Of a stretch of DNA of 64,000 nucleotides, positions 15,982-50,791 are shown one piece after another; positions within the stretch are counted from its first letter, which is position 1, and each line of letters opens with the position of its first letter. The notes beneath the pieces are model-generated. The model searched no databases and had not been told where the DNA came from. It saw only the letters and a program-made list of their open reading frames with translations. Position numbers and translations under genes: made by a program. The stretch comes from a virus, in the IMG/VR virus record IMGVR_UViG_3300042332_001215, positions 1 through 64,000 of that record, one strand, 5' to 3'.

Positions 15982-16250
15982 GATACTTTACCCCATTTAC
16001 CAATTGGACAAGAACCAACTTTGAGTCTGGTTTTTGCACTCATAAAGCAACCGCAGCGGCGACATTGGGTAGTTTTGGCATTAAAGTCCTCACAGGAACG
16101 ACAGGTAGACATTCTGGCCTCCTGCACTGCTGATTCTACAAAGATGTTGTTGCCCTTGGCAATCTCTCCGAAAGAATCTGTAACAGTTTCAGATAGGTTT
16201 TTTAGTCTACCCATCAATTCGTTTTTAATGTCATTGGAATTGGACATCAC
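15978..16250 (-). CDS. Zinc-knuckle protein
   Basis: 90 aa. A helical N-terminus is followed by a Cys cluster: CRSCEDFNAKTTQC, then CRRCGCFMSAKTRL and SCPIGKW. The C-x2-C-x10-C-x2-C-G-C arrangement with a final CPxxKW is typical of a small phage zinc-ribbon family. Possible nucleic-acid or protein binder; no enzyme motif. Confidence 0.7.
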   Translation of the reverse strand: MMSNSNDIKNELMGRLKNLSETVTDSFGEIAKGNNIFVESAVQEARMSTCRSCEDFNAKTTQCRRCGCFMSAKTRLKVGSCPIGKWGKVS

Positions 16251-16453
16251 TCAGCATCAGTTACTACTTCAGTTTCTGATAGTTCAGATACTTCTTCTGG
16301 GCTGAGTAGAGTTAGACCTTCAATAGCACCTTGAAGCTTAACAAATAGTTCTTTCTTTTGTGCTAGCTCAGTGTCAAGCTTACGAATTTCTTCCATCGTT
16401 TGAGCTTGCTGAGACTTGAAATTTTCTAGTAGTTGTTCGGGAGTCATTGTCAT
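16247..16453 (-). CDS. 68-aa coiled-coil protein
   Basis: MTMTPEQLLENFKSQQAQTM...; heptads through residue 45 (EIRKLDTELAQKKELFVKLQ), then an acidic tail. First gene behind the promoter at 16482-16510. Function unknown. Confidence 0.66.
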   Translation of the reverse strand: MTMTPEQLLENFKSQQAQTMEEIRKLDTELAQKKELFVKLQGAIEGLTLLSPEEVSELSETEVVTDAE

Positions 16454-16481: not shown

Positions 16482-16510
16482 ATCGTAACATATTTATCGT
16501 GGTTTGTCAA
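16482..16510 (-). promoter_or_regulatory. Sigma70-type promoter, divergent pair member
   Basis: Minus strand TTGACA (16505-16510), 17-base spacer, TACGAT (16482-16487). GATAAATA (16491-16498), one base off the T4 late consensus, lies within the spacer, so early and late start sites may overlap here. Confidence 0.65.
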
Positions 16511-16515
16511 GGGGG

Positions 16516-16544
16516 TTGACAAGGGTGCTCAAAGTGTGTATAAT
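16516..16544 (+). promoter_or_regulatory. Perfect consensus sigma70 promoter on plus strand
   Basis: TTGACA (16516-16521), 17-base spacer, TATAAT (16539-16544): both hexamers and spacing are exact consensus. Its -35 box is five bases from the opposing -35 at 16505-16510. No plus-strand gene follows; see findings. Confidence 0.8.
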
Positions 16545-16567
16545 AACTCTGTCAGGGTTCAGAAATT

Positions 16568-16592
16568 AGGTCTTTAGAGTACTTAGAGACCT
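16568..16592. terminator. Hairpin at end of adhesin operon
   Basis: Stem AGGTCTTTAG / TTAGAGACCT (10 bp with G-T pairs) and loop AGTAC. It directly follows the stop of the 116-aa gene on the minus strand and lies about 24 bases after the plus-strand -10. The plus side ends in TTT and the minus side has only ATTTC, so efficiency in either direction is uncertain. Confidence 0.5.
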
Positions 16593-16943
16593 TTAAGCAA
16601 AGACTCTGTTGGGAGTGCTTGGAGATGGATCTAGAATATATTCTGTTAGTTCTTCTGGTGCAGATCCTTCAAGAATAATATTTACATGCCAACCATCTTT
16701 TGCAGTTGCTTCAGAGATAACAGTTGGATAACCATCCTCATTCATTTCATAAACTGCATCATTATTATAGATTACACCAACAACATCAATGTCACCATTA
16801 AGTTCTGGTCTCATTGAATAATATGTTGGGGGTTCTTGACCTTCTTGAAATACTGGAGAGGTTCTAATCCAGTTCAAAGATTCAAATACAGTTTTCATTT
16901 CTTCTTCAGAAGAAAACTTTAAGTAATAAGTGGTGTAAGTCAT
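16593..16943 (-). CDS. Hypothetical 116-aa protein at end of adhesin operon
   Basis: MTYTTYYLKFSSEEEMKTVF...; alpha/beta with YSMRPELNGDIDVVGVIYNN and WHVNIILEG. AAGGAG stands seven bases before the ATG. CTAAATA at 16961-16967 could be a cyanophage-type late promoter, giving this last gene its own transcript. Possibly a small fibre chaperone or attachment protein by position; not recognised by sequence. Confidence 0.68.
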   Translation of the reverse strand: MTYTTYYLKFSSEEEMKTVFESLNWIRTSPVFQEGQEPPTYYSMRPELNGDIDVVGVIYNNDAVYEMNEDGYPTVISEATAKDGWHVNIILEGSAPEELTEYILDPSPSTPNRVFA

Positions 16944-50224: not shown

Positions 50225-50244
50225 TCTTATTTTTGCCTTGATAA

Positions 50245-50318
50245 TACCCGAGGTGGGATTTGAACCCACGACTGCTCGATTTTAAGTCGAGAACCTCATT
50301 CCGCTGGGTCACTCGGGC
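50245..50318 (-). tRNA. tRNA-Leu (anticodon UAA), short variable arm
   Basis: Acceptor GCCCGAG / CTCGGGT (one G-U pair) with discriminator A; D-arm ACC/GGT; anticodon stem CTCGA/TCGAG with loop CTTAAAA, giving anticodon UAA; variable loop only 5 bases (CAGTC); T-arm GTGGG-TTCAAAT-CCCAC. CCA is not encoded. UAA reads UUA (Leu), a common codon in this AT-rich genome. Bacterial tRNA-Leu normally has a long variable arm, so charging may be atypical. Confidence 0.85.
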
Positions 50319-50330
50319 ATTTATGCGACA

Positions 50331-50359
50331 ATCATAACACATGGTCAGAGGACTGTCAA
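50331..50359 (-). promoter_or_regulatory. Strong sigma70 promoter between tRNA genes
   Basis: Minus strand TTGACA (50354-50359), 17-base spacer, TATGAT (50331-50336). Drives tRNA-Leu and speD independently of tRNA-Met. Confidence 0.8.
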
Positions 50360-50360
50360 G

Positions 50361-50433
50361 TGCTGGTTGAGGGGATCGAACCCACCTATCTTGTCTTATG
50401 AGGACAGTGCTTTCACCAGAGAGCTAAACCAGC
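50361..50433 (-). tRNA. tRNA with CAU anticodon (Met, possibly Ile2)
   Basis: Acceptor GCTGGTT / AACCAGC with discriminator A; D-stem GCT/AGC with loop GG; anticodon stem CTGTC/GACAA with loop CTCATAA (anticodon CAU); variable loop GATAG; T-arm GTGGG-TTCGATC-CCCTC with one mismatch. CCA is not encoded in place. The loop fits elongator Met or a lysidine-modified Ile; sequence alone does not decide. Confidence 0.85.
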
Positions 50434-50435
50434 AG

Positions 50436-50487
50436 AAAACCCGAAAAACCTATAAAGGCAAAAATTTTGGAGAATTTTTTTTCGGGT
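50436..50487 (-). terminator. Hairpin in leader of tRNA transcript
   Basis: 10-bp stem ACCCGAAAAA / TTTTTCGGGT with a 29-base AT-rich loop that can form an inner hairpin, followed by TTTTC on the minus strand, just before tRNA-Met. It could be an attenuator or a processing guide for the tRNA 5' end. Confidence 0.45.
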
Positions 50488-50530
50488 ATTTTGCAATCAG
50501 CTACGCATTTTCCTTCACACGGACCATGGT

Positions 50531-50559
50531 ATCATAGCACACTGGCTTTGAGTTGTCAA
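50531..50559 (-). promoter_or_regulatory. Strong sigma70 promoter for tRNA-Met unit
   Basis: Minus strand TTGACA (50554-50559), 17-base spacer, TATGAT (50531-50536). Its -35 overlaps the stop of the 61-aa gene. A leader of about 90 bases precedes tRNA-Met. Confidence 0.82.
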
Positions 50560-50741
50560 TACCTGTATTGAATTCTATCCTCGGTTAAAGTTTCGTTAAT
50601 AAACTTACACATATTAGTGAAGTCTTGTGAATCTGGTTCATGTACTTCAAGATATTCTCCATCATAACCATGTAGATGAATCGTTCTTGATAGGACATCA
50701 ACCTCTACTCGTTCTAGAGTTGAATCGCTTCGGATGTTCAT
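50556..50741 (-). CDS. Hypothetical 61-aa early protein
   Basis: MNIRSDSTLERVEVDVLSRT...; small beta-rich domain (IHLHGYDGEYLEVHEP) and a helix (DFTNMCKFINETL). It has its own consensus promoter 22 bases upstream, so probably an early product. Not recognised. Confidence 0.7.
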   Translation of the reverse strand: MNIRSDSTLERVEVDVLSRTIHLHGYDGEYLEVHEPDSQDFTNMCKFINETLTEDRIQYRY

Positions 50742-50762
50742 TGGCAGGGGCTGTAATGCTCA

Positions 50763-50791
50763 ATCATACCACAGGTCGTGTGGCTTGTCAA
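50763..50791 (-). promoter_or_regulatory. Strong sigma70 promoter for 61-aa gene
   Basis: Minus strand TTGACA (50786-50791), 17-base spacer, TATGAT (50763-50768). It lies 12 bases beyond the gp5 stop and separates the late hub operon from the early island. Confidence 0.82.

Follow-up and report, generated by a model that had tools for sequence, protein, structure and literature searches.

Genes and promoters at the window locus

The window analysed here is a 64-kb (64,000-nucleotide) stretch of viral DNA from IMG/VR. At the locus of interest it passes from a set of small minus-strand genes to a block of tail proteins (phrog_5939), and two promoters stand back to back at this module border. 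The features are as follows.

16247..16453, minus strand: 68-aa gene (phrog_580, unknown function), which opens the divergent operon and served as the query for relatives
16482..16510, minus strand: divergent back-to-back promoter TTGACA-N17-TACGAT, serving the small minus-strand genes; conserved in L001-L008
16516..16521, plus strand: -35 box TTGACA, exact; invariant in 10/10 aligned loci and perfect in 79/79 copies at gp55 loci
16539..16544, plus strand: -10 box TATAAT, N17 from the -35 box; TATAAT in 8/10 aligned loci
16545..16559, plus strand: start-site palindrome AACTC-TGTCA-GGGTT (15 bp), proposed operator; nearly invariant at this locus, with arms that covary in gp55-locus copies and variants shared within genomes
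16551, plus strand: predicted transcription start, the G of TGT, 7 nt past the -10 box (standard sigma70 spacing)
16562..16565, plus strand: purine tract GAAA, 3' of the palindrome; purine at 89-97% of gp55-locus copies (nucleotides 18-21 after the -10 box)
16568..16592, plus strand: 10-bp hairpin noted by the first-pass annotation; weak, not conserved
16593..16943, minus strand: 116-aa gene (phrog_18574), last of the tail-protein block, its 3' end facing the plus-strand promoter

The minus-strand promoter consists of TTGACA (16510-16505), 17 nt and TACGAT (16487-16482), the last preceded by TG. Between the two -35 boxes lie 5 bp (GGGGG), within TTGTCAAGGGGGTTGACAA at 16504-16522. The plus-strand TTGACA-N17-TATAAT (16516-16544) is the sole 12/12 sigma70 match in the 64-kb window. 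It has no plus-strand gene downstream; a minus-strand gene ends at 16593. The promoter points antisense toward the end of the tail-protein operon, in which three tail proteins (phrog_5939) lie upstream of the 116-aa gene. All of this agrees with the first-pass annotation, which had described the five-base back-to-back arrangement, an exact plus-strand promoter that was the best in the window, its antisense orientation and its place at a border. The promoter, the architecture and the orientation all recur in relatives. No tRNA was found near this promoter.

By chance, 0.043 exact 12/12 sites would be expected in a shuffled window, with one present in 4% of shuffles, and in 19% of shuffles two TTGACA boxes stand back to back. 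Such odds, taken from sequence alone, are weak evidence; we judge the promoter to be real on its conservation in relatives.

Some further features of the window deserve mention. On the minus strand, between the -35 and -10 boxes of the divergent promoter, the sequence ATAAATA (16491-16497) resembles the T4-type late promoter motif TATAAATA, and (A/C)TAAATA is retained at this position in 9/10 relatives; it is possible that early and late promoters overlap here. Close to the locus a 90-aa zinc-ribbon-like protein (DUF6171, PF19668; 15978-16250, minus strand) has more than 200 IMG/VR relatives, and no known structure matched it. Elsewhere, three TTGACA-N17-TATGAT promoters (11/12) are found within 460 bp (50331-50791, minus strand), adjoined by tRNA-Leu (50244-50319) and tRNA-Met (50360-50433).

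Conservation of the promoter and loss of the hairpin

Relatives of the locus were found via the neighbouring 68-aa gene and placed in a ten-sequence alignment. The nine relatives retain the -35 box, most of the -10 box and about 20 nt further, the exceptions in the -10 box being TACAAT in L009 and TAAACT in L010. The sequence is nearly invariant through CAGGG, and conservation fades about 20 nt past the -10 box. The conserved unit is larger than first reported: it comprises the promoter, the 15-bp palindrome over the start site and the purine tract. The palindrome, directly 3' of the -10 box, is the most conserved part and had been overlooked.

The first-pass annotation expected the hairpin, ending in TTT, to close an RNA of about 45 nt, and named conservation of promoter and hairpin in relatives as a check. 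The promoter is indeed conserved. The hairpin is not: the near-identical L001 alone has it whole, L002 has half of it, and the remaining relatives have lost it. A hairpin of 10 bp is present at 16568-16592, although its T tract is poor (just TTTAA follows). It is not unusually stable (-10.7 kcal/mol, z -1.2 to -1.3) and was not reported by a terminator scan of the window. The hairpin and weak T tract speak for a short terminated RNA, but there is no conserved hairpin with a T tract to end one. We reject the discrete 45-nt RNA, weakly supported since its hairpin is not conserved, and regard it as highly improbable. Searches with Rfam covariance models gave chance-level matches only, far under the gathering scores, and a known RNA family was likewise rejected.

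A repeated family in cyanophage genomes

The unit is a repeated family, a point that the earlier annotation had also missed. The 20-mer AACTCTGTCAGGGTTCAGAA has 36 exact matches in IMG/VR, and a -35/-10 pair precedes every one whose upstream sequence is present; for a degenerate form there are more than 119. The nine cyanophage genomes scanned carry 1-3 copies each: two in S-PM2, Syn1, Syn9 and P-RSM1, three in S-SM1, S-H35 and a relative labelled G001, and at least one in P-SSM2 and S-RSM4. The two in Syn9 (DQ149023.2) lie near 123,698 on the complement and 52,776 on the plus strand, those in S-PM2 near 84,439 on the complement and 162,772 on the plus strand. These copies make up 2-3 of the 12-32 strong promoters per genome. 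The 86-kb record to which the window belongs holds the studied copy only; this record is a fragment, and is also without gp55.

A search of 85,000 genomes of bacteria and archaea gave two occurrences of the full pattern, in a metagenome-assembled genome called Lewinella (CAJXMP010000233.1) and in a Synechococcus single-cell genome (QCSL01000004.1). Both contigs are probably phage DNA, since each carries a cyanophage copy of the unit, and a host-derived element was rejected as an explanation.

In T4-like marine cyanophages the unit often points head-on at the end of an adjacent block of genes. Among 107 distinct copies selected by motif, a set dominated by gp55 loci, 87 face the end of an ORF, whereas 17 have a sense ORF that begins 17-89 nt after the start. 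At position 73188 on the plus strand of G001 (L289), another strong promoter precedes a start-site palindrome that is perfect but differs in sequence, AGGGGAGTTCTCTCCCC.

The copy beside gp55

One copy has a constant place. We picked 80 IMG/VR loci by the gp55 protein alone, blind to the unit, and 79 of them have TTGACA-N17-TAnnnT followed by a similar start-site sequence, 45-97 nt from gp55 and directed away from it; the spacing is N17 in all 79. In the 80th, a related site occurs at another position of the contig. The best score in random windows of these loci is 19, so the weakest copies are identified by their place, perfect -35 box and spacing rather than by score. A convergent ORF of 125-167 aa is found at 79/79 unit-bearing loci and ends a median of 22 nt past the predicted start.

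In 9/9 genomes inspected this copy lies between gp55, which is divergent, and the end of GC139-uvsW, to which it is antisense (placement was judged from the ORF layout in G001 and from annotation in the others). The gp55 side has its own back-to-back promoter of at least 10/12 at 54/79 loci, against 57/1600 random places; the gp55 loci share this divergent architecture with the window. GC139 is Sm-like, with PF16243 in 5/5 and a match to PDB 3by7 at E 0.003. This T4-GC 139 protein is annotated as 'methylamine utilization' (e.g. L247, 4082-4480), and every cyanophage genome inspected has a homologue.

In the antisense gene, the last 12 codons have a synonymous diversity of 0.42 and the first 12 of 0.37, with a mean of 0.48. 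As diversity is not clearly reduced where the RNA would overlap, the body of the antisense RNA looks unconstrained, and a sequence-constrained antisense RNA body was not seen (0.42 at the 3' end versus 0.48 overall).

The start-site palindrome

In the gp55 set the palindrome takes many forms, for example AACTC-TGTCA-GGGTT, AACAG-TGTCG-CTGTT, AACTG-TGTAG-CAGTT, AACTT-TGTAG-AAGTT, AACCT-TGTAG-AGGTT and AGCG-ATGTCG-CGCT. The arms are free of mismatches in 35 of 40 distinct variants if T.G is counted as a pair. With the relatedness of the sequences left in for both tests, none of 200 reshufflings of the right arms reaches the observed arm pairing score, and among 17 equal-length variants, hand-picked to fit one register, the covariation score is 0.300 versus 0.138 ± 0.031 and drops when the partner is slid. 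The reshuffling of all 40 is the fairer test, because the 17 were chosen for one register. Non-palindromic variants also exist at gp55 loci (L397, L403), and S-H35 and Syn9 have an A.G mismatch.

Copies within one genome tend to share the same variant. In the nine genomes, 15-mers from the same genome differ at a mean of 1.0 positions and those from different genomes at 3.64 (permutation p 5e-5). For example, AACCATG occurs three times in S-SM1, a six-base loop twice in S-PM2, and GTAAGGG twice each in Syn1 and P-RSM1. The promoter spacers of the same genomes differ by 8.6 within and 11.0 between, and are much less alike within genomes than the palindromes are. Covarying arms and shared variants together suggest that the copies answer to one trans-acting factor; part of the likeness may come from common descent, as the spacers too are somewhat similar within genomes.

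In its frequent T.G stem pair and in its loop lengths, which range over 4-6, the palindrome resembles an RNA hairpin more than a dimer site. With the start expected 7 nt past the -10 box, on the G of TGT, the palindrome straddles the start and its left arm should remain untranscribed, which makes a DNA site the natural reading.

Proposed mechanism

From its sequence and conservation, the window promoter with its palindrome is probably a virus-controlled early switch and not the gene of a 45-base small RNA. Our preferred reading, to which we give a tentative probability of roughly 0.45, is that the unit represents a class of early host-sigma70 promoters with a start-site operator for a putative phage regulator, firing head-on into a neighbouring operon. 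The consensus boxes are 17 nt apart and conserved across relatives, as in a host-sigma70 early promoter; the covarying inverted repeat over the predicted start, with variants shared within a genome, is what a repressor operator would look like.

The plus-strand site would then be one copy of a conserved early promoter class of T4-like cyanophages (Kyanoviridae), at which the host sigma70 RNA polymerase would begin transcription on the G of the TGT in the middle of the palindrome. The operator would be the palindrome itself, which has this start at its centre, and through it a phage-encoded regulator would govern all copies of a genome jointly. Copies at borders, such as the window copy and the gp55 copy beside the Sm-like and uvsW genes, would fire head-on into the 3' end of the neighbouring operon, which we assume, from T4 and from gene content, to be expressed late. 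Early in infection, head-on transcription or antisense RNA may suppress leakage of the opposing operon; later, the regulator would close the promoter and opposing transcription could go ahead. We favour the act of transcription over the RNA body, given that the antisense gene shows no clear synonymous constraint. Elsewhere the same promoter would simply drive genes, and since some copies do lead into sense genes, interference cannot be the sole role.

A wider version of this proposal is that the element, kept family-wide antisense to the Sm-like/uvsW operon and beside the late sigma factor gene, switches the phage from early to late expression (or governs the use of origins by way of UvsW) under one putative phage regulator that replaces the missing MotA and AsiA. 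We find this somewhat doubtful.

Alternative explanations

One rival is an ordinary sense early promoter that has been orphaned, its plus-strand gene replaced here by the tail module; the start-site sequence would then only adjust promoter escape or the message's 5' end. Such a gene, of 194 aa (MSDF...), does exist in L003-L007, some 50 nt past the start of the same promoter, and the 17 of 107 copies that lead into sense ORFs also speak for this reading. However, several relatives of the window locus that are without the sense gene keep the unit intact, the gp55 copy faces a convergent rather than a sense gene at 79/79 loci, and promoter escape does not need covarying arms. We consider this reading unlikely. 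A small RNA acting in trans, with the conserved 5' end GUCAGGGUUCARRRR and perhaps bound by the phage Sm-like protein encoded next to the gp55 copy, would account for the conservation of the first 16 or so transcribed nucleotides, for the Sm-like nature of GC139 and for the RNA-like T.G pairs. Set against these are a body, hairpin and terminator that are not conserved, the lack of an Rfam family, the left arm, which should not be transcribed, and copies that run straight into genes; we hold this to be improbable.

The main rival is an R-loop replication origin like oriF, oriG or oriE of T4, in which the promoter RNA stays annealed over AT-rich DNA and primes the leading strand, and UvsW, encoded next door, later unwinds it. 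An early promoter serves oriE in T4, and oriF combines a promoter with an AT-rich unwinding element (PMC3016281). The gp55 loci are AT-rich at +10 to +60 (28% GC versus 36%), the RNA start there is G- and purine-rich, and the copies are few per genome and in fixed places. The window copy, though, is not AT-rich downstream (35% GC). GC skew, examined in six genomes for an origin, gave no signal at the copies, nor did these coincide with skew extremes. Furthermore, no sequence motif is shared by the T4 origins (PMC3016281), whereas copies of the unit are nearly identical, and an early claim of a single origin in Syn9 (PMC2984593) sits poorly with its two copies. We therefore see an R-loop origin as quite unlikely, and retain the early promoter with a start-site operator as our preferred reading.

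Comparison with known systems

The unit is not described in the papers that we searched, which cover early expression by host sigma70 in cyanophages, their missing MotA/AsiA system, the CfrI antisense RNA and the origins of T4; we regard its novelty as provisional. Cyanophages are without MotA, AsiA, Alt and Mod and use the host sigma70 early (PMC2984593), and their early gene control has been attributed to host-sigma70 promoters (PMC2984593, PMC3037559). How genes are timed without these factors in abundant marine T4-like cyanophages is a standing question (PMC2984593). A near-invariant promoter with a proposed operator, at a constant site beside the late sigma factor gene, brings this question within direct reach of experiment, and the palindrome could serve as it is as DNA bait for the putative regulator. 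The window copy adds that the unit also occupies other module borders.

T4-type early phage promoters likewise have strong -35 and -10 boxes that are read by the host RNA polymerase without phage factors; the unit differs in its fixed, covarying start palindrome and purine tract. Operators of the lambda and lac type are short inverted repeats over the start, common to the few promoters of one regulon. The logic of such simple repressor sites is similar here, with a short inverted repeat over the predicted start, but the arms of the unit diverge between lineages, its loop length varies, one copy is retained in antisense orientation to a core operon, and the regulator is putative. The R-loop origins oriE and oriF of T4 place a promoter before AT-rich DNA near uvs genes (PMC3016281), much as at the gp55 copies; they differ in having no common motif, and GC skew gave no origin signal at the unit. 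Antisense transcription, predicted here, has a precedent in a T4-like cyanophage, the CfrI RNA of S-PM2 (about 225 nt), which is antisense at psbA and a homing endonuclease gene (PMC2984593, PMC5931967). The unit differs from CfrI in its location and in being retained by every one of the nine genomes inspected.
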